Positions 32,327 to 64,000 of a DNA stretch of 64,000 bases are shown here, piece after piece (the stretch's first letter is position 1; each line of letters opens with the position of its first letter). Source of the DNA: Stenotrophomonas bentonitica (GTDB taxonomy: Bacteria > Pseudomonadota > Gammaproteobacteria > Xanthomonadales > Xanthomonadaceae); contig NZ_PKQP01000002.1 in NCBI RefSeq assembly GCF_002887735.1, forward strand, positions 62,001 through 126,000. Direction: 5' to 3'. Both the position numbers and the translations under genes were made by a program. A model generated the notes under the pieces. The model saw only the letters and a program-made list of their open reading frames with translations, did not search any database and was not told the DNA's origin.

Positions 32327-32451
32327 TCGGCCGACGCATTCGGATGGCGAATGCAGTCGATCCCCAATCTTCATTGGTGCCGGCGCGGCGGCTCGGCTAC
32401 GGTCGTTCTCCAGCGGCGCCCACCGGGCGCCCCCGTGGAAGGAGCAGGAAC

Positions 32452-48151: not shown

Positions 48152-49030
48152 TCAGCCGAGCAGGCCGCGCTGCCGCGCAAGACGGTACAGGCCCCGCGCC
48201 GCAAGGCTTTCAGGCGCATCGACGGGGGTCCTGTCGAGCACCTTCAGCGCGTGGGCATAGCGCGTGGTCAGCGTGGTATTGCCCACCAGGTGCACCTCGG
48301 CCCCGGGCGCGGCCAGGTCGCGGATTTCATGGCCGAGCAACAGGCCGGAGAGATAGGAGGGGGCGGCCGAAGGCGCGAGACGCTCGAACAGGCCCAACGC
48401 ACGCACGCCGAACAGGTGGTGCAGCAGGCCACCGGCATCGCCGCTGCGCTGCACGCCTTGGGCGAAGGCGATGGCATCGAAACCATCGCCGTCGTCCATC
48501 AGGCGGCCGAGCAGGCTGTGCTGGCGCAGCAGCGCGAACACCTCGCCGGTCATGGCGGTCGCAAAACCGGTGATCGCCCCATCGTGCAGCGTTGCCCACT
48601 TGCTGTGCGTACCAGGCAGGCAGACATGGGCGTGGCCTGCGCGGGTGTCCAGGCCGAATAATTGCGTTTCTTCGCCGCGCATCACATCCGGCGTCCCGCC
48701 CGCGCCCTGGACGGCCACGCCAGGCACGAACCAGAGATCACGGCCAGGCAGCCGTGCATCGTGATGCAACTGCAGCGCTGCGGCGAGATCGGCCAGCCCG
48801 GCCGGGCAGGGCAGGTAGGCCTGCTCGATCCAGCCATTGCGGCTGCCGATCATCCCGCTGAGCAGGATCGTGCTGTCCGGCCAGCCATCGACCAGCCCGG
48901 CCAGCACGTCGGCGTAGTTGCCATCGCAGTGCAGTATTCCGCGCGCACTGGAGCGCTGCTCAAGGGTGGCACCGTGCTGGTCCAGCCGGTAGCCGCGCAG
49001 GCTGCTGCTGCCCCAGTCAACGGCGATCAT
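48152..49030 (-). CDS. dgoK: 2-dehydro-3-deoxygalactonokinase
   Basis: DgoK phosphorylates 2-dehydro-3-deoxygalactonate at C6 with ATP. The 292-residue protein has the DgoK N-terminus IAVDWGSSSLRGYRLD, ILLSGMIGSRNGWIEQAYLPCP near residues 55-76, and the nucleotide-binding VCLPGTHSKWATL. It overlaps the SMP-30 stop by four bases and is the last gene of the five-gene galactose operon on the minus strand. The order of enzymes here covers galactose to pyruvate plus glyceraldehyde 3-phosphate. Confidence 0.93.
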   Translation of the reverse strand: MIAVDWGSSSLRGYRLDQHGATLEQRSSARGILHCDGNYADVLAGLVDGWPDSTILLSGMIGSRNGWIEQAYLPCPAGLADLAAALQLHHDARLPGRDLWFVPGVAVQGAGGTPDVMRGEETQLFGLDTRAGHAHVCLPGTHSKWATLHDGAITGFATAMTGEVFALLRQHSLLGRLMDDGDGFDAIAFAQGVQRSGDAGGLLHHLFGVRALGLFERLAPSAAPSYLSGLLLGHEIRDLAAPGAEVHLVGNTTLTTRYAHALKVLDRTPVDAPESLAARGLYRLARQRGLLG

Positions 49031-49932
49031 CCGCGGATCCGGCTCTCGGGCAGGCCAGGCTGCGCCTGGCGCGCGCTGAACAGGCTGCCGGCGTGCGTGC
49101 TTGCGGCCAATTCCTCCGGCGTGTGGTCCAGCCGCGAGCTGATCACGTACAAGGTACGCAGGTCATTGCCGCCGAAAGCCACGCAGGTGGGGTGTTTGAC
49201 CGGCACCGGCTGGACCTGCAGCAGGGTGCCATCGGGTGCATAGCAGCTGACCTGGCGCGCGCGCCATTGCGCGTTCCATACCCGTCCGGCCGCATCGACG
49301 GCCGAGCCATCCGGTTCGGCCGCCGTATCGGCCAGGGCGGTGAATTCGCGCACGTTGCGGGTGCTGGCCTGCTCGGGGTCGTAATCGCAGGCCATGATCC
49401 GCGGCGATACCGAGTCGCACCAGTACATCGTGCGGCCATCCAGGCTGAAGCTGATCGCATTGGAAATCACGATGCCCGGCAGCGGCAGCTCGCGCAGGCC
49501 GTGGCGGGTGGAGTACTGGTAGAAGCGGCCATCGGCAGCGCGCTCGGGGTGCTCGTTCATGGTGCCGAACACGAAATTGCCGTGACGATCGGCGCGGCCA
49601 TCATTGCTGCGGGTATAGGGCTTGTAGGGCTCCACATCGGCAAGCCACTGCAGGGGCAGGGTGTCGTCGGTGGCGCTGGCAAGATCTGCGCGGTGCAGCG
49701 AGCTGACCAACGCCACCAGCAAGGTGCCGTCGTCGAACAGGCCGATGCAGCCGGGGCGGTCAGGCAGCACCCAGTAGCGGCGGGTGCCGCGCGCGGGGTG
49801 GTGCTCCCACAGCCGGCGCTCGGCGATGTCGATCCAAAGCACGCTCTGCCGCTGTTCGCACCAGAGCACGCCTTCGCCATGGGTGCAGCGGCTGTCCACC
49901 ACCAACGTGGCCGGGGCCAGCTCAACGCTCAT
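49027..49932 (-). CDS. SMP-30/gluconolactonase family lactonase, probable galactonolactonase
   Basis: This 301-residue six-bladed propeller of the SMP-30 family has the metal-ligand Glu in CTHGEGVLWCEQ, Asn in VISNAISFSLDG, and Asp in GSAVDAAGRVWNAQW. The enzymes hydrolyse sugar lactones using a divalent metal. In this operon the natural substrate should be D-galactono-lactone from the SDR dehydrogenase. ATG 49932, five bases after GGTGAG, is preferred to a GTG two codons upstream. It is coupled to dgoK by overlap. Confidence 0.87.
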   Translation of the reverse strand: MSVELAPATLVVDSRCTHGEGVLWCEQRQSVLWIDIAERRLWEHHPARGTRRYWVLPDRPGCIGLFDDGTLLVALVSSLHRADLASATDDTLPLQWLADVEPYKPYTRSNDGRADRHGNFVFGTMNEHPERAADGRFYQYSTRHGLRELPLPGIVISNAISFSLDGRTMYWCDSVSPRIMACDYDPEQASTRNVREFTALADTAAEPDGSAVDAAGRVWNAQWRARQVSCYAPDGTLLQVQPVPVKHPTCVAFGGNDLRTLYVISSRLDHTPEELAASTHAGSLFSARQAQPGLPESRIRG

Positions 49933-49938
49933 CGCCAC

Positions 49939-51087
49939 TCACCATTCGGCAACGGAGCCGTCGCTGTGGCGCCAGATCGGGTTGCGCCAGTCAGGCGGGT
50001 TTTCATGGGCATGGCGCAGGCGCTCCTCATCGATTTCCACGCCCAGCCCGGGTTTGGGCAGGGCGGCGATGCTGCCATGGTCGCAGTGGAAGTCGTCCTT
50101 GTTCAACACGTAATCGAGCAGATCGGCGCCCTGGTTGTAGTGGATGCCGATGCTCTGTTCCTGCAGCACCGCGTTGTGCGAGACGAAATCCAACTGCAGG
50201 CAGGCCGCGAGCGCGACCGGGCCCAGCGGGCAGTGCGGCGCGAGCGCGACATCGTAGGCTTCGGCCATCGCCGCGATCTTCAGGCACTCGGTGAGGCCAC
50301 CGGCATGCGAGAGATCCGGTTGCAGCAACGACAGACCGCCGTTGGCGAGGACCTGCTTGAATTCGAAGCGCGAGTACATGCGCTCACCGGCCGCCAGTGG
50401 AATCGAGGTGGCCGCAGCCAGGCGCGGGTAATACTCGGCCTGCTCCGGAAGGACCGGCTCTTCAACGAACAGTGGCCGGTATGGCTCCAGTTCCTTGAGC
50501 AGGACCCGGGCCATCGGTGCGCCCACCCGGCCATGGAAATCCACGCCGAAATCGATGCTGTCGCCGAATGCATCGCGCAGCGCGGCGACCTTGGCGATGG
50601 CGGCATCCACGCGGCGGGGGCTGTCCAGCAGCTGCATCTCTTCAGTGCCGTTGAACTTGAACGTATCAAAGCCGAGCGCGCGGTACCGATGTACCTGCTC
50701 GACCAGATCGGCCGGCCGGTCGCCGCCCACCCAGCGGTAGGTCTTCATGCGATCGCGCACCAGGCCCCCCAGCAACTGGTAGACCGGCACGCCGAGCGCC
50801 TTGCCCTTGATGTCCCACAGCGCCTGGTCGATGCCGGCGATGGCGCTCATCAAAATCGCGCCGCCGCGGTAGAAGCCGCCGCGGTACATCGTCTGCCACA
50901 GGTCGTTGATCCGGGCCGGGTCCTTGCCGATCAGATACGCCGACAGCTCATGCACGGCGGCGTCCACCGTGCGTGCGCGGCCTTCGATCACCGGTTCGCC
51001 CCAGCCGACGATGCCCTCGTCGGTCTCGATCTTCAGGAACAGCCAACGCGGTGCGGCGTGATAGGTAACCAGTCGGGTGATCTTCAT
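49939..51087 (-). CDS. dgoD: D-galactonate dehydratase
   Basis: DgoD dehydrates D-galactonate to 2-dehydro-3-deoxygalactonate. The 382-residue enolase-superfamily protein has the family length and motifs: [29 protein letters not shown] near residues 67-95, metal and catalytic residues in [21 protein letters not shown] and [12 protein letters not shown], and the catalytic His in APHCPLGP. The closely related substrate classes are hard to separate by eye, but neighbours dgoK and dgoA fix the call. It overlaps dgoA by four bases. Confidence 0.94.
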
Positions 51088-51704
51088 CCGTGCGTAGTCC
51101 GGTAGGCCTGGAGGAACGCCTGGGCCTGCTCGCGGGTACGCTGCAGCGGCTGGGCGGGTTGATAGAGATCGCCCCCGATCCCGGCACCGACCGCACCGGC
51201 GGCGAGGTAGCTGGCGAGGGAGTCCGGGGTCACGCCGCCGACCACGTACAACGGCAGCTCGCGCGGCAATACCGAGCGCAGGGCGCGCACGTGGCCGGGG
51301 CCATAGGTGGCCGCAGGGAACAGCTTGAGCATCTGCGCACCGGCATCGATCGCATCGAATGCCTCGCTGGCGGTGGCGAACCCGGCCATCACCTGCAGGC
51401 CCTGATCCACCGCGTGGCGGATCAGCGCCGGCCGCGTGTTGGGGGTGACGATGAAGCGTGCGCCGATCTCCACCAATGCGTCCACCTGCTGTTCGCGCAG
51501 CACGGTGCCGCCCCCGATCCAGGCCTGTGCACCGAACGCGCGCTGCGCGCCGGCGATGCTGTCTTCCCAGCGTGGCGAGTTCAGCGGGACTTCGATCGCA
51601 TCGAAGCCGGCATCCACCAGTGCGCGGACGTGAGCGAGGGTGTCTTCGGGGGGGATGCCGCGCAGGATCGCGACAAGCGGCAGATGGAAGGTCGGTGCGG
51701 TCAT
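51084..51704 (-). CDS. dgoA: 2-dehydro-3-deoxy-6-phosphogalactonate aldolase
   Basis: DgoA splits 2-dehydro-3-deoxy-6-phosphogalactonate into pyruvate and glyceraldehyde 3-phosphate. The 206-residue class I aldolase of the KDPG/KDPGal family has Glu38 in [10 protein letters not shown], the phosphate loop WIGGGTVLR, and Schiff-base Lys127 in [13 protein letters not shown]. The LNSP after the Glu and TPNTRPALI are typical of the KDPGal rather than KDPG branch. It begins two bases after the SDR stop and overlaps dgoD. Confidence 0.93.
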
Positions 51705-51706
51705 GA

Positions 51707-52456
51707 TTACTCGTGGTAAAGCTGGGAACGGCCACCGTCGATCAGGATGTCGGTGGCATTGATGAAGCGGGCTTCGTCACTGGCCAGGAACAGCGCGGTA
51801 TGCGCCACCTCGCCGGGCTCGCCGATGCGCTTGCAGGGCAGCAGCTGCTCCTGTGCGTGGCGCGTGGCGGCCGGGTCGGCGCTGTTGGCGAACCAGGCTT
51901 CGATCCGCGGCACCAGGATCAGCCCCGGCGAAATCGAGTTCACCCGGATGCCCTGCGCCGCATACTCGATGCCCAGCGCTTTGCTCAGCCCGATCAGCCC
52001 ATGCTTGGCGACCGGGTAGGGGAAGGCGTGCGGGATGATGCGGTGGCCATGCACCGAGGCGATGTTGACGATGGAACCGGCCTGCTGCGCCACCATCGCC
52101 GGCAGCACTGCGCGGCACACGTTCCAGGCGCCTTTGAGGTTGAGGTCCAGGCAGCGTTCCCACTGTGCGTCTTCCAGCTGCAGTGGGTCGGCGAAGACAT
52201 CGGCCCCGGCATTGTTGACCAGCACGTCCACGCGCCCATGCTCGGCGCGGATGGCCTCCACCAGGGCACGCACGGCGGCGGCATCGGTGATGTCGGCCAG
52301 GCGATGGTCGATCCGGGCATCCACGGCATGCGGTGGATTGAGATCCAGTCCGATCACCCGGGCGCCGTGCACGGCGAACAGCGCGGCGGTGGCCGCACCG
52401 ATGCCGCTGGCCGTGCCGGTCACCAGCGCGATCTTGTCCTGCAGTCGTTTACTCAT
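51707..52456 (-). CDS. SDR family oxidoreductase, probable galactose 1-dehydrogenase
   Basis: This 249-residue short-chain dehydrogenase has the Rossmann motif TGTASGIG at residues 13-20, NNAG near 81-84 and the catalytic set Ser134, Tyr147 and Lys151 (SVHGHRI, YPVAK). As the first gene of an operon with SMP-30 lactonase, dgoD, dgoK and dgoA, it most likely oxidises D-galactose to the lactone. An L-arabinose or fucose activity cannot be excluded from sequence. ATG 52456 ([14 protein letters not shown]) is the family start. Confidence 0.85.
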
Positions 52457-52637
52457 CGAACAGTGTGTCCAGGGGAGCCAACGGCAGACGGTACGACAAA
52501 GCGGGGACGGACAAAGCAGGCTCCAGGAATCGGCGGGCGCGGGGGGCGCTGGCGGGCTGGCAGCCGGGGGCGGCGCAACCATACGATCAGGGTTGCGTGC
52601 GAAGGTATTCTTATCAAATGAAATTTTTCGGAATATC

Positions 52638-52656
52638 TATTCCCCCGTCGAATACC
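52638..52656. promoter_or_regulatory. Candidate LysR-type operator in dgo/lysR intergenic region
   Basis: TATTC-N7-GAATA (52638-52654) extends to GGTATTC on the minus strand. It contains the LysR T-N11-A core as TTC-N7-GAA and lies between the divergent SDR and lysR genes. An overlapping GGAATA-TC-TATTCC dyad (52630-52643) and a further GGTATTC at 52604 give extra half-sites. Confidence 0.5.
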
Positions 52657-52694
52657 GTGATTCAATGCGGCGATCAACGCAGAACGGATGTGTG

Positions 52695-53657
52695 ATGACC
52701 ACCGCGCCTGGCCCCTGGACAAATGCCTCCCGGCTCAAGACCCGGCATTTGATGTTGTTGCTGCACCTGCATGAACATGGTTCGGTCCTGCGCGCGGCCG
52801 AGGCCGCCGCCATGACCCAGCCGGCCGCGTCCAAGCTGCTGGCGGAGATGGAAGACATGCTCGGGGTGAAACTGTTCGAGCGCCATGCCCGCGGCGTGGA
52901 GCCGACCTGGTACGGCCACGTGCTGATCCGGCGCGCACGCTCGGCAATGTCCGAGATCGGGCGGGCCACGGAGGAGATCGCCGCGCTGCGCAGCGGGCAT
53001 CGGGGCCAGGTGTCGATCGGCACCGTGGTCAACCCGGGCACCAACCTGGTGCCACAGGCGATCGCCGAGGTGAAGCGCGAGTTCCCGGACATCCTGATCC
53101 GGGTCGAGATGGACTACAGCCGGCCCCTGGTGGCCCGTCTGCTGGACGGCCAGCTGGACCTGGTGATCGGCCGGATCCTCGGGCCGGAGGGTGCGGCGGA
53201 CCTGGCCTTCGAAGCGCTGGCCGATGAACCGCATTCGGTGATCGCCCGTGCCGGCCATCCGCTGGCCAACCGCGATGATCTGCACCATGCCGATCTGGCC
53301 CGGCATGGCTGGATCCTGCCCCCGGCCGACAGCGTGCTGCGCGCGCGGCTGGACGCGCTGTTCCTGGAACAGGGCCTGCCGATCCCGCAGAACATCATCG
53401 AGACCAGTTCATTGCCGGTGATGACCAGCCTGCTGCGCGGCAGCGATCTGCTCGCCGCGCTGCCGGTGGAATCGGTGGCGCCCTACATCCAGGCCAAGCT
53501 GCTGACCGTGCTGCCGATCGATGTGGGCGTCCGCATGGAATCGTTCGGGATCATCTACCGGCGCGGCCACGTGCTGCCGCCCGCCGCCGAACGCATGCTG
53601 TTGGCCCTGCGTACCACCGCGCGCTGGCTGTATCCGGGGCTCCGCGGGAGCGGCTGA
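52695..53657 (+). CDS. LysR-type regulator, probable controller of galactose/xyloglucan genes
   Basis: This 320-residue regulator has an N-terminal winged helix (residues 14-75: RLKTRHLMLLLHLHEHGSVL, then AAAMTQPAASKLLAEMEDMLGVKLF) and a LysR effector domain (about 100-310). It resembles the GbpR subgroup, which in Agrobacterium and relatives responds to sugars such as galactose. It is divergent from the dgo operon and directly precedes the xyloglucan cluster. An ATG at 52695 is preferred; a GTG one codon upstream is possible. The effector is inferred to be galactose or a catabolite. Confidence 0.87.
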   Translation: MTTAPGPWTNASRLKTRHLMLLLHLHEHGSVLRAAEAAAMTQPAASKLLAEMEDMLGVKLFERHARGVEPTWYGHVLIRRARSAMSEIGRATEEIAALRSGHRGQVSIGTVVNPGTNLVPQAIAEVKREFPDILIRVEMDYSRPLVARLLDGQLDLVIGRILGPEGAADLAFEALADEPHSVIARAGHPLANRDDLHHADLARHGWILPPADSVLRARLDALFLEQGLPIPQNIIETSSLPVMTSLLRGSDLLAALPVESVAPYIQAKLLTVLPIDVGVRMESFGIIYRRGHVLPPAAERMLLALRTTARWLYPGLRGSG

Positions 53658-53694
53658 CACGGGCCGGACCCCTGCTGGTATAGGCACAGTGAAT

Positions 53695-53714
53695 GGTATT
53701 CTCCGAAGGAATAC
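53695..53714. promoter_or_regulatory. Candidate LysR-type operator before the xyloglucan TonB receptor
   Basis: GTATTC-TCCGAAG-GAATAC is a perfect 6-bp-arm dyad with the same core and spacing (TATTC-N7-GAATA) as the site at 52638. It lies about 200 bases before the receptor gene and 38 bases after the lysR stop. Confidence 0.5.
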
Positions 53715-53917
53715 ATCCGGCCCAATATTTTATTGGCATGGAATGGCTCCCGCTGCCTAAGCTGCCCGCCAGCTACCACCCCTCACGAGGGTGGCCGCGA
53801 TGATCCCCGGGTCGGTTCCACCGGTGTCGGGGTCACCTTAAAACCTGATTGTTACAGGCAGCGCCGCCTTCGCAGCGCTGTCCACCGTCAGCACATGTGT
53901 CCTGGGAGGGAAACATC

Positions 53918-56620
53918 ATGTCAGTACGTTGTTGCCGTGGGGCGACAGGCGCATCCGTGCCTGCACGCACCCCCACCGCTGTGCGCCGCCGCGCGCTGGC
54001 GGTCTGCGTTTCGATGCTGGTTGCCGGCCAGGCCATGGCGCAACAGAGTGATATCCAGGACGCCACCGCGGCGACCCAGCTGGACACCGTCCAGGTGACC
54101 GGCACCCGCAGCAGCGTGACCCGTGCCCAGCAGATCAAACAGAATGCCGAGCAGATCGTGGATTCGATCGTGGCCGAGGACATCGGCAAGCTGCCAGACA
54201 ACAACGTCGCCGAGGCACTGCAGCGCATCTCCGGCATCCAGATCACCCGCAACTACGGCGAGGGCAGCACGATCGCCATCCGTGGCCTGACCCAGGTGCG
54301 CACCGAGCTCAACGGGCGTGACATCTTCACCGCCAATGACGGTCGCGGCCTGAGCTTCGAGGATGTGTCGGCCGAGCTGCTCGGTGGCGTCAATGTCTAC
54401 AAGAATCCGTCGGCGGAAATGATCGAAGGTGGCCTCGGTGGCACCGTCGACCTGCGTACGCGGCTGCCCTTCGATTACGAGGGCCGCAAAATCGCCGGCA
54501 GCCTGCAGTACAACCATTACGATCTGGCCGATGACAGCAAGCCCGCGTTCTCGGGCATGTTCAGCGACCGCTGGCAGACCGGCATCGGCGAAGTCGGCCT
54601 GCTGGTGAACTACTCGCAGCAGACCAGCCCGTTCCGCCAGGACACGATCTCGCTGGAGCCCTGGTATTCGCAGACGGACCTGCCCGGCTTCGAAGGGACC
54701 GAGGTATTCGTCCCGCATGGTGCCGGCGTCAACACCACCGTGGGTGAGCGCAAGCGCCGCACCGGCGCGGTGGCGCTGCAGTGGCGCCCGCGCGATGACA
54801 TCGAGGTGCAGGCGCAGGTGCTGCGCTCGGACTACGATTTCCGCTGGCAGGACTATTCCTTCTTCGCCTACAGCGGCGGCGATGCCATGCAGGGCGCGCG
54901 CGATATCGTGGTCAACGACCGCAACGAACTGGTCAGTGGCGTATTCCAGAATACCCCGGCCGATTCCAACACCAGCCTGACCCAGCGCAAGTCGATCACC
55001 ACCGACTACTCGCTCGGCGCGAAGTGGACGGTGAGCCCGAGCCTGACCCTGAGCACCGATGTCCAGTACGTCGATGCCACCACCAAGGGGACGCGCTACA
55101 TCGTGGGCACCGGCATGAACGCCACGCCGTTCTACACGATCGACCTCAGTGGCGACCTGCCGTACCTGGCGGTGACCGATGCAGTCGGCAACCAGGGATA
55201 CCTCACCGATCCGGCCAACTACGTCGGCTGGAAGTTCCACCTGGACAACAAGGACGACAACAAGGGCACCGAGTTCGCGTGGCGCTCGGACATGGACCTG
55301 GCGTTCGAGGATGGCTTCGCCCGCAGCTTCAAGGCCGGCGTGCGCTACACCGACCGCAAGGCCGAGAACCAGGGCAATGTCTGGCGCTTCATGTGGCTGG
55401 GCGCGCCGTTCGCCGATTTCCCGAACGTGGGCCTGGTGCCGAACCCGATCACCGACTTCTTCCGCGGCAAAAGCTACACCTTCGGGCCGACCCTGAGTGC
55501 CTCCGATGCCGCGGTGGAGAATTACGAGCAGACCCTGGCCGCGTTCGGTGCCGATCCGCTGGAATTCTCGCCGAACAACATCAACAACCAGCGCGAAAAG
55601 ACCTACGCCGCGTACGGCGTCCTTCGCTTCGGTGCGGATGACTGGGGCGTCCCGTTCGATGGCAACATCGGCGTGCGCGTGGTGCGGACCGAGGTGACCT
55701 CCGACGGCGTGCGTACCGGGACCGACATCGAAGGCGGTGGCCTGCTGCCGGTCAATGTCGAGCAGTCCTACACCGATGTGCTGCCCAGCCTCAACCTGCG
55801 CTGGATGTTCACCGACCAGCTGCAGCTGCGCTTTGCCGCCTCCAAGGGCATTTCGCGCCCGGGCTTCGACAAGCTCAACCCGAACCTGAGCCTGAGCGCG
55901 GCCGATGCCGGGGGTGGCGTGACCCGGCGCACCGGTTCGGCCGGCAATCCCAACCTCAAGCCGATGGAGGCCACCCAGTTCGATACGTCGCTGGAGTGGT
56001 ACTTCGGCCAAGGCTCGATGATGTACGGCACCGCCTTCTACAAGAAGGTCGATGGGTTCATCGCCAACGCCGTGTTCAACGAGGTCTACGCCGGCGAGAA
56101 CTGGGAGATCACCCGCCCGGTGAATGGCGATGACGGCAAGATCAAGGGCGTGGAGGTGGGCTACACCCAGTTCTTCGACTTCCTGCCGGGCTGGATGAGC
56201 CATTTCGGCCTGCAGACCAACTACACCTATGTCGACTCCAAGGCGCCCAGCCCGAATGCCACCGATACCAATGGCAGCCAGTTGGTGGTGCCGCTGGAGG
56301 GGCTCTCCAAGAACAGCTACAACGTCATCCTCAGCTATGAAGTCCCGCGCTTCCAGGCGCGCGTGGCCTACAACTGGCGCAGCGACTGGCTGATCACCAC
56401 GGCCGGCAACGGCACCGGCAACCTGCCTGTCTACAACAAGGGCTTTGGCCAGCTGGACGCCTCGCTGCGGTTCAACATCAACGAGGTGTGGTCGGTGTCG
56501 CTGGACGGCATGAACCTGCTCGATACCCGCAACGAAAGCTACCTGGGCTACACCACGCGCTACCGCGACTTCGTGATCAACGATCGTCGCTACGGCATCA
56601 CCCTGCGCGCCAGCCTGTAA
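53918..56620 (+). CDS. TonB-dependent outer-membrane transporter of the xyloglucan cluster
   Basis: This 900-residue receptor has a signal peptide (cleavage after AMA, residue 41), a TonB box in LDTVQVTGTRSS, a plug domain (about 60-180: EDIGKLPDNNVAEALQRISG, IAIRGLTQVRTELNGRDIF) and a large barrel ending ITLRASL. The LPDNNVAEALQR plug type belongs to the Xanthomonas/Caulobacter carbohydrate transporters, not siderophore receptors. It heads a set of xyloglucan enzymes, so it probably imports xyloglucan oligosaccharides to the periplasm. ATG 53918 follows GGGAGGG. The upstream 260 bases hold a LysR-type dyad. Confidence 0.9.
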   Translation: MSVRCCRGATGASVPARTPTAVRRRALAVCVSMLVAGQAMAQQSDIQDATAATQLDTVQVTGTRSSVTRAQQIKQNAEQIVDSIVAEDIGKLPDNNVAEALQRISGIQITRNYGEGSTIAIRGLTQVRTELNGRDIFTANDGRGLSFEDVSAELLGGVNVYKNPSAEMIEGGLGGTVDLRTRLPFDYEGRKIAGSLQYNHYDLADDSKPAFSGMFSDRWQTGIGEVGLLVNYSQQTSPFRQDTISLEPWYSQTDLPGFEGTEVFVPHGAGVNTTVGERKRRTGAVALQWRPRDDIEVQAQVLRSDYDFRWQDYSFFAYSGGDAMQGARDIVVNDRNELVSGVFQNTPADSNTSLTQRKSITTDYSLGAKWTVSPSLTLSTDVQYVDATTKGTRYIVGTGMNATPFYTIDLSGDLPYLAVTDAVGNQGYLTDPANYVGWKFHLDNKDDNKGTEFAWRSDMDLAFEDGFARSFKAGVRYTDRKAENQGNVWRFMWLGAPFADFPNVGLVPNPITDFFRGKSYTFGPTLSASDAAVENYEQTLAAFGADPLEFSPNNINNQREKTYAAYGVLRFGADDWGVPFDGNIGVRVVRTEVTSDGVRTGTDIEGGGLLPVNVEQSYTDVLPSLNLRWMFTDQLQLRFAASKGISRPGFDKLNPNLSLSAADAGGGVTRRTGSAGNPNLKPMEATQFDTSLEWYFGQGSMMYGTAFYKKVDGFIANAVFNEVYAGENWEITRPVNGDDGKIKGVEVGYTQFFDFLPGWMSHFGLQTNYTYVDSKAPSPNATDTNGSQLVVPLEGLSKNSYNVILSYEVPRFQARVAYNWRSDWLITTAGNGTGNLPVYNKGFGQLDASLRFNINEVWSVSLDGMNLLDTRNESYLGYTTRYRDFVINDRRYGITLRASL

Positions 56621-56745
56621 CGCGTGACCGTCTGCGGGCCTTCCTGCTTCGTGGCACCTCCCCAGCACGAAGCAGGGAGGACCGCAGCTTCTGTTCCAGG
56701 CGTGTGGACATTGGGCCGCATGCCGCTCCACCGGGAGGCCCGTGC

Positions 56746-58983
56746 ATGACCCCCGCCGATTGGCTGATCTGGACCGTGCGCGCATCGGTCCGCCCGCGTC
56801 ACTGCCGGGCAGGGTGGCTGGTGCTGCTGCTGGCCGTGTTTCCGGTTCTCGCCACCGCGGCGCCCTACCAGTGGCGCAACGTGGCCATCGGTGGCGGTGG
56901 CTTCGTGACCGGGCTGGTCTTCCATCCGGCCGAACCGGACCTGCTGTACGCGCGCACCGATGTCGGCGGTGCCTACCGTTGGGATCAGGCCAGCGGCCGC
57001 TGGAGCGCGTTGACCGACTGGCTCGGTCGTGACGATGCCAATCTCACCGGTATCGAAAGCCTGGCCGTGGACCCGCGCGACCCGCAGCGTGTCTATCTGG
57101 CCGCAGGCACCTATACCCACCCCCGCGTGGGCAATGGCGCGATCCTGCGTTCGTCCGATCGGGGGGCCACGTTCGCGCGCACCGATCTTCCCTTCAAACT
57201 CGGTGGCAACGAGCTTTCGCGCGGCAATGGCGAGCGACTGGCCGTGGACCCCCATCAAGGCGGCATTCTCCTGCTCGGCTCACGCAGCAATGGCCTGTGG
57301 CGCAGTGACGACCATGGTGCGCACTGGCAGGAAGTGACGACCTTCCCGGCGATCGCGCGCAGCGCGCAGGCCAGCGCGCCGGCCTGGAACGGCACGCAGC
57401 AGATCGGCATCGTGTTCGTGCAGTTCGATGCGCGCAGTGGCCGCGCTGGCAGCCCTACACCGGTGATCTACGCGGGCGTATCGACGACGACGGGCCCGGC
57501 GATTCTCCGCTCCACGGATGGTGGGCGCGCCTGGCAGCCGCTGCCCGGGCAACCGACCGGTCTGCGTCCCACCCGCATGGCGCAGGGCAGCGACGGTCGC
57601 CTCTACATCGCCTATGCGGATCTGCCCGGCCCGGACCGCATGGGCAACGGGGCGCTGTGGCGTTTCGACATCAAGCAGGCTCGGTGGCAGGACATCAGCC
57701 CGGTGCCGCAGTCCAGCGACACCCAGGGCGATGGCTTCGGCTGGGGCGCGGTCGCGGTGGAGGCCGGCAACCCGGACGTGGTGATGGCCAGCACCTTCAA
57801 CCGTTTCGGACCGCACGACGACATCTTCCGCAGTACCGATGGCGGTCGCAGCTGGACACCGGTCATCGCGGGCGCGAGGTTCGACCACGGCAACGCGCCA
57901 TGGACCGCACACGCCTCGCCGCACTGGATGGCCGACGTGCAGATCGATCCGTTCGATCCGCGCCGGGTGCTGTTCGTCACCGGCTACGGCCTGTGGGCGA
58001 GCCGCGATGTCCGCGCGGCCGATCACGGCCAGCCCGTGCAGTGGTGGTTCCAGAATGATGGGTTGGAAGAAACGGTCCCGCTGGACCTGGTCAGCCCGGG
58101 GCAGGGCGCGCACCTGCTGAGCGCGCTGGGCGACATCGATGGCTTCCGCCACGATGACCTGACCGTGTCGCCATTGCAGTACGCCGGTCCGCGCCTGACC
58201 AACAGCGAGAGCATCGACGCTGCCGCGCAGTCACCTTCCCACGTGGTGCGCAGCGGCACCGTGCGCCATCGCCTGCATGACGAGGTCCGTGCGGCCTGGT
58301 CGAACGATGGTGGGCGTACGTGGCAGGCGTTCGTCAGCGAACCGCCGGACGGCGAGGGCGCGGGCCGCATCCGCCTCGGCAGCGATGGCGGCCGGGTGCT
58401 GTGGCACACGTTGCGCGGCAGCCATTGGTATACCGATGACCACGGCCGGCATTGGCAGGCCGTGCGCGGCCTGCCCAACACTGCCGTGGTGGTCGCGGAC
58501 ACCCGCTCGCCTGCGCACTGGTATGGGTACGACGCCGCCAGCGGCGCGTTGCTGCGCAGCGACGATGGTGGCGCCTCGTTCGTCGCCGACCGCGTACGCC
58601 TGGCGCCGGCCCCGGTGCTGACGGCCGAGCTGCGCGCCGATCCACAGCAGGGTGGGCTGGTGTATGTCGGTGCCGGTCCGCAGGGGCTGCTGCGCTGGCG
58701 CGCTGGTGATCTGCAGCGCGTGGCGGGGGTGGATGCGGTTCACAGCCTCGGCGTCGGCAAGGGTGCCCCGGGTCGTGACGTTGCCAGCGTGTTCGTTGCG
58801 GGCACCGTCGAGGGCGTCCATGGGCTCTTCCGTTCCGATGACGGCGGTGCCCGGTGGCTGCGCATCGATGACGCCGCGCACCAGTTCGGTCAGATTCAAC
58901 GCGTCACCGGGGATCCGCGCCTGCATGGGCGCGTCTACTTCGCCACCGGTGGGCGCGGCATCGTCTATGGAGATCCACAATGA
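56746..58983 (+). CDS. GH74 family xyloglucanase
   Basis: This 745-residue secreted enzyme has a signal peptide (about 1-38) and two tandem beta-propellers of the GH74 fold. The start PYQWRNVAIGGGGFVTGLVF, the YARTDVGGAYRWD segment with the conserved Asp72, GAILRSSDRGATF, LPFKLGGNELSRGNGERLAVDP and repeated Asp-box-like motifs (RSTDGGRAW, RSDDGGASF) are characteristic. It would cut the xyloglucan backbone. The general-acid Asp of the second propeller could not be assigned by eye. GGGAGG precedes ATG 56746; the stop overlaps the next gene by ATGA. Confidence 0.88.
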   Translation: MTPADWLIWTVRASVRPRHCRAGWLVLLLAVFPVLATAAPYQWRNVAIGGGGFVTGLVFHPAEPDLLYARTDVGGAYRWDQASGRWSALTDWLGRDDANLTGIESLAVDPRDPQRVYLAAGTYTHPRVGNGAILRSSDRGATFARTDLPFKLGGNELSRGNGERLAVDPHQGGILLLGSRSNGLWRSDDHGAHWQEVTTFPAIARSAQASAPAWNGTQQIGIVFVQFDARSGRAGSPTPVIYAGVSTTTGPAILRSTDGGRAWQPLPGQPTGLRPTRMAQGSDGRLYIAYADLPGPDRMGNGALWRFDIKQARWQDISPVPQSSDTQGDGFGWGAVAVEAGNPDVVMASTFNRFGPHDDIFRSTDGGRSWTPVIAGARFDHGNAPWTAHASPHWMADVQIDPFDPRRVLFVTGYGLWASRDVRAADHGQPVQWWFQNDGLEETVPLDLVSPGQGAHLLSALGDIDGFRHDDLTVSPLQYAGPRLTNSESIDAAAQSPSHVVRSGTVRHRLHDEVRAAWSNDGGRTWQAFVSEPPDGEGAGRIRLGSDGGRVLWHTLRGSHWYTDDHGRHWQAVRGLPNTAVVVADTRSPAHWYGYDAASGALLRSDDGGASFVADRVRLAPAPVLTAELRADPQQGGLVYVGAGPQGLLRWRAGDLQRVAGVDAVHSLGVGKGAPGRDVASVFVAGTVEGVHGLFRSDDGGARWLRIDDAAHQFGQIQRVTGDPRLHGRVYFATGGRGIVYGDPQ

Positions 58984-60887
58984 AACGAGCGTGTGCGCTG
59001 GTGGTATCGCTGTGGATGGTCACCGCCGCCGTGCAGGCCGAGCCGGTCCTGCCCCGGCTGTTTGCCGACGGCATGGTGCTGCAGCGTGACCAGCCGCTGC
59101 CGGTGTGGGGTACGGCCACGCCCGGCGCACGCCTGCAGGTCGGCATCGACGGCGAACGTGCCAGTACCACGGTCGGTACGGACGGTAGCTGGAAGGTCGT
59201 GCTGCCGCCGCACGCGGTCGGTGGCCCATTCCAGCTGGAGATCACGGGCGACGGGCGCGCGCTGCAGGTGCGCGATGTCCTGTTCGGCGATGTCTGGCTG
59301 GCCAGCGGTCAGTCCAACATGGAATGGCCGCTGCACGATACGCAGGACGCGGCGGCGGCCGTCGCCGCTGCGAGCGACGCGCAGCTGCGTCATTTCAAGA
59401 TTCCCAAATCCTGGTCCGGGCAGCCGGAAACCACACTGGCCGGTGGCCGCTGGCTGCCGGCGTCCCCCGCCAACGCGGGGAGCTTCTCCGCGGTCGCGTA
59501 CTACTTCGCGCGCGAGCTGCGGCAGCACGCCGGGGTGCCGATCGGCATCATCGACAGCACCTGGGGCGGCAGCACCATCGAAGCCTGGATGGCCGCCGCG
59601 CTGCAGGACATTGATGCAGGCGCGCTGGCCACGCGCATGCAGGCGCAACGCGAGACGGATGCACGCACCCTGGCCAAGGTGCGCCAACGCCTTGCGCAGT
59701 GGCACACCTTTGACGAGCAGCCGCAGTGGGCCGCAGCCCGGTTCGACGACCGCGATTGGGAAGCCGCCACGCTCCCGGGGCTATGGGAAACCGGCGGCTA
59801 TGCCGGCATGGACGGGATCGGCTGGTACCGTGCCGAGTTCACCTTGAGCGCGGCACAGGCTGCGCAGGCCGGCACCCTTGGAGTCGGACGGATCGATGAC
59901 GCGGACCGCACCTTCGTCAATGGCGTGCAGGTCGGCGCGACGACGATGGCCTGGAACACACCGCGTGTGTATCCGCTGCCCGCCGGCCAACTGCAGGCCG
60001 GCCGCAACGTGGTCGCGGTGCGAGTGGAGGACCTGGGCGGTGGTGGTGGCATCCACGGTGAGCCGTCCGAACTGTTCGTGCGCCTGGCCGATGGCAGCCA
60101 GGTGCAGCTGCAAGGCTGGCGTTTCCGTCCCGGCAAGGTGACGGTCGCCCTGGACGATGACAAGAACCAGATCCCGACGCTGCTGTACAACCGCATGATC
60201 CACCCGTTGCCGCCATTCCCGATCAAGGGGGTGATCTGGTACCAGGGCGAGAGCAATGCCACCGATGCCGGAGCGCTGGCCTATCGGGATCAGTTCAAGG
60301 CCTTGATCCAGCAGTGGCGGCAGGACTGGAACGCACCGGCGCTGCCGTTTGTCTGGGTGCAGCTGGCCAGCTTCGGCGCGGGCGCCGATCACGGTGAGCA
60401 GAGCCCGTGGGCGTTGCTGCGCGAGTCGCAGTCGGCGGCGCTGTCGCTGCCGCATACCGCGCAGGCGGTGAGCATCGACCTGGGCAATGCGACGGATATC
60501 CATCCGCGCAACAAGCGCGATGTCGGCGCACGCCTGGCGCTGGCCGCCCGGCACGCGGCGTATGGCGAAACGCTGACGTACAGCGGTCCGGTGCAGCGCG
60601 ACGTCCGCTTCGATCGCGGCCAGGCCGTCATCACCTTCGATCCGATGGGCAGTGTGCTGGCGGTGCGCGGCGGTGGGATGCAGGTACAGGGCTTCACCGT
60701 GGCCGGTGCCGACCGCCGGTTCCACGCTGCACAGGCGCGAATCGATGGTGACCGCGTGATTGTCCACAGCGAGGCGGTCGCCACGCCGGTGGCAGTGCGC
60801 TATGCCTGGCGGGAGAACCCCGCCGACGCCAACCTGATCAATTCGCAACAGCTGCCGGCGTCGCCGTTCCGCAGCGATACCTGGTGA
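58980..60887 (+). CDS. CE20-type SGNH acetylesterase (sialate O-acetylesterase-like)
   Basis: This 635-residue exported esterase has a signal peptide (cleavage near residue 20), an N-terminal beta-sandwich, and an SGNH hydrolase domain split by an insert. Ser112 lies in ASGQSNMEW, the Gly block in [15 protein letters not shown], Asn in [10 protein letters not shown], and Asp506/His508 in DIHPRNK. The insert (about 210-395, ending [16 protein letters not shown]) is a jelly-roll-like module. This layout fits the xyloglucan acetylesterase that founded family CE20 in Xanthomonas citri, so it should deacetylate galactosyl side chains. Coupled to GH74 by overlap. Confidence 0.85.
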
Positions 60888-60904
60888 CCACAAGGACCCC
60901 GTGC

Positions 60905-62614
60905 ATGTCTCCGACCACATACCCGCTTCCGCTGTTCCCGCGCCGCCTGCTGCTGCCGGCCGCCTTGTTCTGTCTGCTGGCCGCCTGTGAGCAGGAACCG
61001 ACGCCGACACCGGCCGATGGCGCCACGGCTGCACAGCCTTCCGCGACAGGCAAACCGGCGACGACCGATGACGCCAGGCAGGCGCCGATCCCACAGTTCA
61101 CCAGCAAGGATGGCAGGCATGCGCTGCTGGTGGATGGCGAGCCCTTCCTGGTGCTGGGCGCGCAAGTCAACAACTCCAGCAACTACGCCGCAGCGCTGGA
61201 GGCAGTGTGGCCGGCGGTGAAGATCATCGGTGCCAATACGGTGCAGGTGCCGATCGCCTGGGAGCAGATCGAGCCGGAGGAAGGCAAGTTCGATTTCACC
61301 TTCGTCGATACGCTGCTGCAGCAGGCGCGTGAACACCACGTGCGCTTGGTGCTGCTGTGGTTTGCCACCTGGAAGAACAACGGCCCGGCCTACGCGCCGC
61401 GCTGGGTGAAGACCGATAACACCCGCTTCCCCCGCGTGATCACCCGCGACGGGCGCAGCATCGGTTCGCTGTCGCCGCACGCCCCGGCCACGCTGGAGGC
61501 GGATCGCAGGGCCTTCGTTGCCTTCATGCAGCATCTCAAGGCGGCCGATCCACAGCGCACGGTGATCATGGTGCAGCCGGAGAACGAGCCGGGCACCTAT
61601 GGCAGCGTCCGCGATTTCTCGCCGATGGCGCAGCAACTGTTCGACGGCCCGGTGCCGGCCGAACTGCTGCAGAAGCTCGGCAAGTCACCCGGCACCTGGG
61701 CACAGGTGTTCGGTGCCGATGCCGATGAGTTCTTCCATGCCTGGTCGATCGGGCGCTTCATCGATCAGGTCACTGAAGCAGGCAAGGCGGTGTACCCGCT
61801 GCCGATGTACGTCAACGGCGCGCTGCGCGGGCCGTTCAACCCCGGCCAGCCGGGCCAGTACGCCAGCGGCGGCCCGACCGACAACGTGCTCGATGTGTGG
61901 AAGGCCGCCGGGCCCCATATCGATTTCCTGGCCCCGGACATCTACATGCCCGAGTACCGCATGTACACCACGGTGCTGGCGCGCTATGCGCGGCCGGACA
62001 ATGCGCTGTTCGTCGCCGAGACCGGCAACGCGCCACCGTATGCACGCTACCTGTTCCCGACGCTGGGCCATGACGGCATCGGCTGGTCCACGTTCGGCAT
62101 CGATTTCAGCCACTACAGCAACTATCCGCTGGGCGCGAAGAAGGTGGACGAGGCAACACTGGCGCCGTTCGCCACGGGCTTCCAGCTGGTCAGCCTGGGC
62201 ATGCGCCAGTTCGCCAAGGCCTCGGCCGAAGGCAAGCTGCATGGCGTGGCCGAAGAAGCCGGCCAGGCCGTGCAGGACGTGCCGCTCAATGCGCGCTGGC
62301 GCGCCACCGTCACCTATGGCGTGTCGCAGTTCTGGTTCCAGGGCCAGCCGCCGGGCAATCCCGAGCCGATCGGCAGTGCGCTGATCGCCGAACTTGGCCC
62401 GGACGAATTCCTGATCACCGCCCAGCACGCGCGGGTCACCCTGCACCCGGCCGGAGAGGCCACCGCGAACATGGTGCTCGATCGTGTCGAGGAAGGGTTC
62501 TACAAGGATGGCCAGTGGCAGTTCCAGCGCAACTGGAACGGCGACCAGACCGATTACGGCTTGAACTTCACCACTGCGCCGCAGCTGCTCAAGGTCACGC
62601 TGGCGACGTATTGA
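60905..62614 (+). CDS. GH35-like beta-galactosidase lipoprotein (DUF5597 type)
   Basis: This 569-residue protein has a lipoprotein signal (lipobox LAAC, Cys28), a TIM-barrel glycosidase domain (about 65-395) and a C-terminal beta domain of the DUF5597 type. The acid/base Glu228 lies in [11 protein letters not shown] and the nucleophile Glu372 in FVAETGN. Relatives in Xanthomonas and Caulobacter are GH35 beta-galactosidases; here it would remove galactose from xyloglucan side chains in the periplasm. ATG 60905 follows AAGGA by eight bases; a GTG at 60884 overlapping the esterase stop is an alternative. Confidence 0.88.
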
Positions 62615-62660
62615 ACCGGGGGTGCCCGCACCCGCGCAACGAATGAGAAGGGAGCACTGA

Positions 62661-64000
62661 ATGCGTTACATGAGCGTACTGAGCGTGCCGCTGCTGGCAT
62701 TGCTGGCGTCACCGGCGATGGCCCAGAGCCATCGCGTGCTGGACAACGGTGTGGTGGTGGTGCCGGCCCAGGCCGGCGCGGCCCAGGTCCGGCTGGAACT
62801 GGTGGACGACAACATCGTGCGGGTCAGCGCCGATCCGGACGGCGACTTCAAGCGCACCCCCAGCCTGATGCGTGTCCCCGTGCAGGGGAAGCCGCGCTTC
62901 ACGGTGGAGCAGGGCGGCGGCAACGTGCGCCTGGTTGCCGCCGGCATCAGCGCGGAGATCTCCGAAGCCGATGGCCATGTCAGCTTCCGCGATGCCGAAG
63001 GCAAGCCGCTGCTGGCCGAGCGCGCCGGTGGCCGCAGCTTCAGCCCGCTCAGCGTGGAAGGCAAGGCGTACTACAGCGTGCGCCAGCGCTTCGAGTCGCC
63101 CAGCGATGAGGCGATCTACGGGTTCGGCCAGCACCAGCAGGGCTGGATGAACCAGAAGGGGCGCGACGTCGAGCTGCTCCAGGGCAACATCGACATGGCG
63201 GTGCCGTTCATCGTCTCCAGCCGCAATTACGGTCTGCTCTGGGACAACAATGCGATCACCCGGCTGGGTGACCCGCGTGGGCTGCAGCCGCTGCAGTCTT
63301 CCCTTCAGGTGTTCGATGCCAAGGGCAAGGCCGGCGCCTTGACCGCCCGCTACATCGTCGATGGCAAGACCCGCGTCGAGCGTCGCGAGCCGGAGGTGAA
63401 CTACCAGTACATCAAGGACCTCACCGCGTTCCCGGCCAAGGGCAGGAACGCGGCTGCGGGTGGGCGCTCGCAGGTGGTCTGGGACGGCGCGATCGAGGCG
63501 AAGACCGCCGGTCGCCATACCTTCTCCCTGTACGGCAGCGAATACATCAAGCTGTATGTGGACGGCAAGCTGGTGATCGATCGCTGGCGCCAGAACTGGA
63601 ACCCGTGGCATCACGAGTTCGCGCTCGAACTCACGCCCGGCACCCGCCACCAGATCAAGGTCGAGTGGGACCTGATCGACCCCAGCTACATCGCGCTGCT
63701 GCACCGTGATCCGCTGCCGCAGGCCGAAGCGGCCGATCTCTCGCTGTGGTCCGAAGCCGGGCAGATGGTCGACTACTACGTGGTCGCCGGCGGCAACGCC
63801 GATCAGGTGATCGCCGGCTATCGCGAACTCACCGGCAAGGCCGTGATGCTGCCCAAGTGGGCGTACGGCTTCTGGCAGAGCCGCGAGCGTTACAAGAGCC
63901 AGGATGAACTCCTCGGCGTGCTGGACGAGTACCGCCGCCGCAAGCTGCCGATCGACAACATCGTACTGGACTGGTCGTACTGGCCGGAGGATGCCTGGGG
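62661..64000 (+). CDS. GH31 alpha-xylosidase with PA14 insert, 3' end outside the window
   Basis: The first 446 codons are present. They encode a signal peptide (cleavage near LLASPAMA, residue 21), an N-terminal beta-sandwich (about 25-240, with YGFGQHQQGWMNQKGRDVEL), and a PA14 domain (about 245-350, HTFSLYGSEYIKLYVDGKLVIDRW). The start of the GH31 barrel follows (MLPKWAYGFWQSRERYKS, then NIVLDWSYWPEDAWG). The PA14 insert is typical of Cellvibrio and Xanthomonas xyloglucan alpha-xylosidases. The catalytic aspartates lie beyond base 64000. AAGGGAG precedes ATG 62661. Confidence 0.88.
   Translation, partial: MRYMSVLSVPLLALLASPAMAQSHRVLDNGVVVVPAQAGAAQVRLELVDDNIVRVSADPDGDFKRTPSLMRVPVQGKPRFTVEQGGGNVRLVAAGISAEISEADGHVSFRDAEGKPLLAERAGGRSFSPLSVEGKAYYSVRQRFESPSDEAIYGFGQHQQGWMNQKGRDVELLQGNIDMAVPFIVSSRNYGLLWDNNAITRLGDPRGLQPLQSSLQVFDAKGKAGALTARYIVDGKTRVERREPEVNYQYIKDLTAFPAKGRNAAAGGRSQVVWDGAIEAKTAGRHTFSLYGSEYIKLYVDGKLVIDRWRQNWNPWHHEFALELTPGTRHQIKVEWDLIDPSYIALLHRDPLPQAEAADLSLWSEAGQMVDYYVVAGGNADQVIAGYRELTGKAVMLPKWAYGFWQSRERYKSQDELLGVLDEYRRRKLPIDNIVLDWSYWPEDAW

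Follow-up and report, generated by a model that had tools for sequence, protein, structure and literature searches.

Genes for xyloglucan utilization and an oxidative galactose operon flank a GamR-type regulator and share a predicted operator in Stenotrophomonas and related genera

Are genes for the breakdown of xyloglucan and an adjacent operon for the oxidation of galactose neighbors by accident, or do they form one regulated system? The question is raised by the last part of a 64,000-nucleotide stretch of Stenotrophomonas bentonitica DNA (C12:62001-126000; the draft genome comprises 45 contigs and 4.36 Mb), hereafter the window, which had been interpreted in a sequence-only reading as a xyloglucan utilization locus (XyGUL) joined to a complete oxidative galactose pathway. 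Our analysis suggests, with a probability of roughly 0.8, that a LysR regulator of the GamR type links the XyGUL with the operon by which the cell oxidizes galactose and that both halves are under the control of GamR. The genes, their order and conservation, and the candidate operators can be read directly from the DNA, as follows (positions of the window).

48152..49030, minus strand: dgoK, 2-keto-3-deoxygalactonokinase (Pfam DGOK, 301 bits, cut-off 25)
49027..49938, minus strand: SMP-30/SGL-type lactonase, a galactonolactonase by position (Pfam SGL, 235.8 bits; nearest solved chains of SMP-30/regucalcin types)
49939..51087, minus strand: dgoD, D-galactonate dehydratase (NF010624 equivalog, 664.5 bits, cut-off 311)
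51084..51704, minus strand: dgoA, 2-dehydro-3-deoxy-6-phosphogalactonate aldolase (NF006600, 284.2 bits, cut-off 207)
51707..52456, minus strand: short-chain dehydrogenase/reductase (SDR), presumed galactose 1-dehydrogenase by position (NF005469 SDR, 355.5 bits; start MSKRLQDK set by eye)
52615..52654, plus strand: predicted composite operator 1, AT-rich half facing dgo and palindrome adjoining gamR (matrix score 53.3)
52695..53657, plus strand: gamR orthologue, LysR-type regulator (Pfam HTH_1 and LysR_substrate)
53697..53736, minus strand: predicted composite operator 2, AT-rich half facing the TonB receptor gene (matrix score 35.0)
53918..56620, plus strand: TonB-dependent receptor (TIGR01782, 812 bits)
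56746..58983, plus strand: GH74 endo-xyloglucanase (best solved chain 7kn8, XccXeg74, 912 bits)
58980..60887, plus strand: CE20 xyloglucan acetylesterase (best solved chain 7kmm, XacXaeA, 845.6 bits)
60884..62614, plus strand: GH35 beta-galactosidase (8fa4, 1016.6 bits; 7kmn, XacGalD, 992.3 bits; lipoprotein-like N-terminus by eye)
62661..64000, plus strand, running past the window end: GH31 alpha-xylosidase with a PA14 domain (7kmp, XacXyl31, 1713 bits)
Past the window (L001), same strand: the rest of GH31, GH95 (7kmq, XacAfc95, 1380 bits), xylB (xylulokinase), xylA (xylose isomerase) and a sugar-porter gene of the major facilitator superfamily (MFS)

All ten genes named in the sequence-only reading are open frames at about the places it gave and fit the families it assigned. 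The minus-strand and plus-strand units do diverge, as it described, but the SDR gene faces a LysR gene that it had missed, which sits between the two units, and not the receptor gene.

Joint control is predicted from a composite sequence of 40 bp, CAAATGAAATTTT-N10-TATTC-N7-GAATA, found upstream of gamR and the dgo operon and again upstream of the TonB receptor gene, with equal spacing and in the same orientation toward its target. The whole 4.36-Mb genome contains just two copies of the core, TATTC-N7-GAATA (window positions 52638-52654 and 53697-53713), and none of its reversed pattern; in 12 related genomes, 17 of 19 occurrences fall at the gamR locus, and the reversed pattern occurs twice. 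The operator was initially modeled as the palindrome only; alignments then revealed another conserved half at a constant distance from it, and the composite model was adopted instead. Upstream of gamR, the 23 scored positions match in full in 47 of 54 loci, with one mismatch or fewer in 51 and three or fewer in 53, a count that includes two duplicate loci and many close relatives. LysR-type regulators usually have their recognition palindrome distal and their activation half proximal to the target, and the layout found here agrees with this.

The training set of a scoring matrix consisted of 23 different sites, all of them from upstream of gamR. Receptor sites were excluded to avoid circularity, and the S. 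rhizophila group (the window, L003, L004, L047, and L051) and L099 (another family, seven mismatches) were also left out of the training set, for which the seed that placed the sites came from the same alignments. In the 64-kb window, the gamR/dgo site has the highest matrix score and the receptor promoter the next highest, followed by a score of -2.5, while the best of ten shuffled windows reaches 0.7. Over 53 distinct loci (1.008 Mb, with L051 and L106 removed as duplicates of L003 and L031), it yields 79 further sites scoring at least 10, all in one orientation, compared with none for the reversed control. A TonB receptor gene lies no more than 500 bp downstream of 77 of these 79 (80 of 82 before the duplicates were removed); of the remaining two, the one in L104 is located 638 bp before a receptor, and the one in L102 precedes an open frame of 840 residues that occupies the GH74 place. 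At all 79 sites the AT-rich half faces the receptor, and loci with two receptors often carry a site before each. Scores between 0 and 10 outside the gamR upstream region number four (L009, L033, L102, and L109). Co-regulation of the dgo operon and the XyGUL is thus strongly predicted from the shared sites. The sequence-only reading had made its case depend on co-induction without having seen these operators. Among the literature titles and abstract openings listed, none announced an operator common to a dgo operon and a XyGUL, and the predicted composite operator shared by both halves is reported here as new.

The arrangement extends well beyond one strain, as a comparison of gene order that had been suggested earlier now shows. 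Among 34 named loci gathered through the LysR protein, dgoK, the lactonase gene, dgoD and dgoA lie on one side of gamR in the same order in 32 (the exceptions, L004 and L023, are both cut by contig ends), and the TonB receptor gene lies on the other side in 33 (L029 is cut by a contig end). GH74 was seen in 27 of the 34; L009 and L030 appear to be without the gene, while L018, L023, L024, L029, and L034 end too soon. In a survey of 91 genomes of the genus, GH74 was present in seven and dgoD in 20, and all seven GH74 genomes have dgoD, located about 6 kb from GH74 on the same contig in six of them (the seventh, G067, is fragmented). The whole gene order, including the SDR gene, was found in all five genus relatives drawn. 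Fifteen further regions come from seven additional genera of the family and from one genus of a different family, and 14 of them carry the dgo genes beside gamR, the receptor gene and XyGUL genes. No dgoD or GH74 match was found in L111, and neither GH74 nor CE20 in L100. Likewise new is the apparent family-wide link between the XyGUL and the galactose operon. The fifteenth region, L099 (G764, from another family of the order), encodes a GamR relative (71%), and the receptor gene downstream of it is preceded by an operator-like site (score 20.8); no dgo or xyloglucan genes were found within the 19 kb taken.

GamR was found in at least 45 of 398 genomes of the order (44 of them in this family) and in 11 of 98 genera, a lower bound as the search scored five candidates per genome. 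The LysR protein of the window is 98% identical to that of its nearest named relative, Stenotrophomonas rhizophila BIGb0145, and 81-84% identical to the LysR adjoining the XyGUL in Xanthomonas. It has LysR domains and shares both orthology and a position beside the XyGUL with GamR, and it is taken here, by synteny, as the orthologue of Xanthomonas GamR. Its equation with X. oryzae GamR is presumed from the position of X. citri XAC1767.

Borne out by its gene families and nearest solved enzymes, the plus-strand half is a XyGUL, and is orthologous to that published for Xanthomonas. The passages available from Vieira et al. (2021; PMC8245568) describe the X. citri locus XAC1768-XAC1777 as comprising two TonB receptors, GH74, an esterase, GH35, GH31, GH95, xylose genes and an MFS transporter; it is induced by xyloglucan oligosaccharides, XAC1769 alone kept growth akin to the wild type, and GamR is XAC1767. 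GH74, CE20, GH31, and GH95 of the locus studied here each have a Xanthomonas xyloglucan enzyme as their top solved match, and GH35 has one as its second best (7kmn, after 8fa4); the structures 7KN8, 7KMM, 7KMN, 7KMP, and 7KMQ are that article's own, according to the same passages. GH74 was assigned via solved GH74 enzymes (its lone NCBIfam match fell under the cut-off), while GH35 reached 496.2 bits with NF051902, just short of the cut-off of 500, and has GH35 enzymes as its nearest solved chains. As in X. citri, the five enzyme genes cluster with a TonB receptor gene, adjacent xylulokinase, xylose isomerase and MFS genes, and an adjoining gamR. In contrast to X. citri there is a single receptor; in most Xanthomonas loci its orthologue is the second receptor (about 75-77% identity, versus 39-41% for the first). 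Because the published description has two receptors, we class the locus as a XyGUL variant. The earlier statement that similar loci exist in Xanthomonas is hence well founded, and the polysaccharide half is not new in kind; the available passages describe no dgo operon and no GamR operator for the X. citri XyGUL. The observation that no inner-membrane sugar transporter is encoded holds within the window, but the MFS sugar-porter gene begins about 7 kb past its edge (L001:8877-10307).

The minus-strand half contains the De Ley-Doudoroff gene set, as had been proposed, with DgoD, DgoA, and DgoK well above curated cut-offs and encoded in one operon with the lactonase. Loci of this pathway have been described elsewhere (PMC5507952, available sections) with the same dehydratase, kinase and aldolase, in Halomonas with an SGL-type predicted lactonase named DgoL, and in one case without dehydrogenase and lactonase; those loci are paired with alpha-galactosidase or galactonate uptake under other regulators and not with a xyloglucan locus. 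The carrageenan utilization regulon of Zobellia, as far as the consulted sections of PMC5698469 describe it, similarly combines a polysaccharide system with its own oxidative pathway, for anhydrogalactose, that passes through the same last intermediates, but it differs in its AraC-family regulator, anhydrogalactose enzymes and SusD-like uptake proteins. A galactokinase model found no match in the whole genome (12 of 14 controls matched, eight above the cut-off). Because galactokinase was not found, the Leloir route was rejected as the main galactose path, and the dgo operon is probably the general and main galactose route of the cell, serving all galactose. The idea of a dedicated module for disposing of side chains finds no support in this picture, nor in the 13 of 20 dgoD-bearing genomes of the genus that have a galactonate dehydratase gene without GH74 (although 10 of these 13 copies are only about 60% identical).

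A working scheme can be proposed on this basis. GH74 would cut xyloglucan and the TonB receptor would import the oligosaccharides, from which exported CE20, GH95, GH35, and GH31 enzymes (their N-termini appear by eye to be of export type) would remove acetyl groups, fucose, galactose, and xylose. The MFS porter would probably carry free galactose across the inner membrane, where the sugar would be oxidized by the SDR, opened by the lactonase and dehydrated by DgoD; DgoK would then phosphorylate the product and DgoA split it to pyruvate and glyceraldehyde 3-phosphate. Galactose, or a compound derived from it, would activate GamR, the presumed binder of the 40-bp operator upstream of the dgo operon and of the TonB receptor gene, with the palindromic TATTC-N7-GAATA half far from the target gene and the AATGAAAWTTT half near it, and the plus-strand set would be transcribed from the receptor promoter. 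If GamR is bound upstream of both, galactose would induce its own catabolism and also uptake of the polymer, so that a side-chain sugar would switch on the import of the polysaccharide carrying it. The shared operator may thus represent concrete wiring, with GamR as the switch and galactose or its product as the signal. Induction of the Xanthomonas XyGUL is shown in PMC8245568, although no account of how it is switched on was found in the passages available. We consider it reasonably likely, if somewhat less so than the joint control itself, that one galactose-responsive LysR controls both polysaccharide import and side-chain sugar catabolism through this operator, whose spacing and orientation are constant in at least eight Xanthomonadaceae genera, with a minor terminal sugar as the inducer of the entire xyloglucan system in Stenotrophomonas and Xanthomonas alike. 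Such wiring is suggested to be an old metabolic circuit of the family, Stenotrophomonas included, and would account for the lasting association of the galactose operon with the polysaccharide genes.

Several observations weigh against this scheme. Visual inspection of the two intergenic regions first drew attention to the palindrome, so that its uniqueness in the genome follows in part from this choice, and the regions from other genera were hand-picked among GamR matches and not drawn at random, many of the loci being close relatives. The receptor site adjacent to gamR scores only 10-14 in L023, L031, L032, L034, L048-L050, L102, and L111. Its score falls below 0 in L033, L103, L109, and L112, where a good site occurs only at a later receptor; L029 has none (contig end). 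The passages available from PMC8245568 discuss GamR for hrp genes and not for the XyGUL, contain the word "galactonate" zero times and leave dgo genes unmentioned. Rashid et al. (2016), as represented by its title and citing passages, likewise presents X. oryzae GamR as a LysR-type galactose metabolism regulator with hrp targets, whereas the dgo operon and the XyGUL receptor are predicted targets here. One could hence suppose that the dgo operon serves galactose in general and is no more than a neighbor of the XyGUL, that GamR controls dgo alone, and that the XyGUL answers to another regulator, one sensing glucose- or xylose-containing products. The genus genomes with dgoD and no GH74 would suit this explanation, as would X. 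oryzae, which according to the same parts of PMC8245568 lacks most XyGUL genes, yet has a GamR named for galactose metabolism. Nonetheless, we judge it improbable, given that the same composite operator stands in the same orientation before the TonB receptors of 52 of 53 distinct loci (in L104 at 638 bp) and that 78 of the 79 sites away from gamR precede a receptor, L104 counted. Chance adjacency in one strain deserves practically no credence and is refuted by an order conserved across named species and several genera.

It is at the first oxidation step that the description of the pathway as "complete" stands only in part. The dgo enzymes are as described, but the role of the SDR, the first gene of the operon, as galactose 1-dehydrogenase is presumed from position. 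The protein belongs to the SDR family, and solved structures were no help to its identity, as the best 60 of 343 PDB matches include no chain with the name galactose dehydrogenase. The gene is absent from the slot between dgoA and gamR in all 27 Xanthomonas loci, the best homologue anywhere in eight Xanthomonas genomes searched is 39-41% identical, and on a GamR tree of 23 selected rows the SDR is present in 11 and missing from 12. A membrane-bound dehydrogenase gene of the type dependent on pyrroloquinoline quinone (PQQ) is present elsewhere in the genome (G000:C1:69954-72389, 1005 bits), and such a sugar dehydrogenase could perform the first galactose oxidation; a pqqC search matched no control genome and is hence uninformative on PQQ synthesis. 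It is accordingly conceivable, if on balance unlikely, that a PQQ-dependent or unlinked enzyme oxidizes galactose and that the SDR acts on another substrate (e.g., L-arabinose or L-fucose). In favor of the SDR, it is always the first operon gene wherever it is present, and its identities correlate with those of GamR (r = 0.82, 45 pairs), as expected of an old resident gene. Its distribution on the tree needs seven changes, for which an old operon gene lost repeatedly would be the simplest reading, with transfer also possible. The lactonase is retained in lineages without the SDR, which suggests that another dehydrogenase feeds it there, and the patchy presence of the SDR raises the question of which enzyme oxidizes galactose in Xanthomonas. 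In L105, only about 43% of the SDR matches in the dgoA-gamR slot, apparently a decaying gene (L105 is counted among the 11 SDR-bearing rows). A class-wide search, which scored at most seven candidates per genome and may thus have left further matches, identified one SDR relative at E 1e-80 or better among 369 genomes besides its own (G373/L044, 59%); the 1.5 kb on either side of it contain no other gene of the locus.

Some further observations concern the operator, the flanks and the regulator. A consensus scan of 52300-54000 gave no sigma-70 promoters and no terminators. The third-best matrix match in the window (32337-32376) is probably due to chance; a different TonB receptor barrel is encoded about 3 kb away. 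Sites matching a longer palindrome with one mismatch occur at C12:297459, inside a keto-acid dehydrogenase gene, and at C42:155523, near an alpha-glucosidase gene (both by eye). The two off-locus cores in related genomes, L059 (G096) and L063 (G095), each at position 1501, are found upstream of a pectate lyase-like gene (by eye); the X. euvesicatoria and X. phaseoli loci come from G096 and G095, respectively, and pectate lyase is perhaps a further target there. Beyond dgoK, dapA-like and PhoH-like frames (named by eye) are shared between the window and the Xanthomonas locus L007, and the locus therefore seems, from this common flank, to have been inherited in place. The gamR frame ends early in L035 (X. 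phaseoli) and contains one stop in G752. In L018 (X. nasturtii), a second short LysR match is present, and an insertion-like stretch of about 4.5 kb lies between gamR and the first receptor site, the predicted operator having stayed with the receptor.

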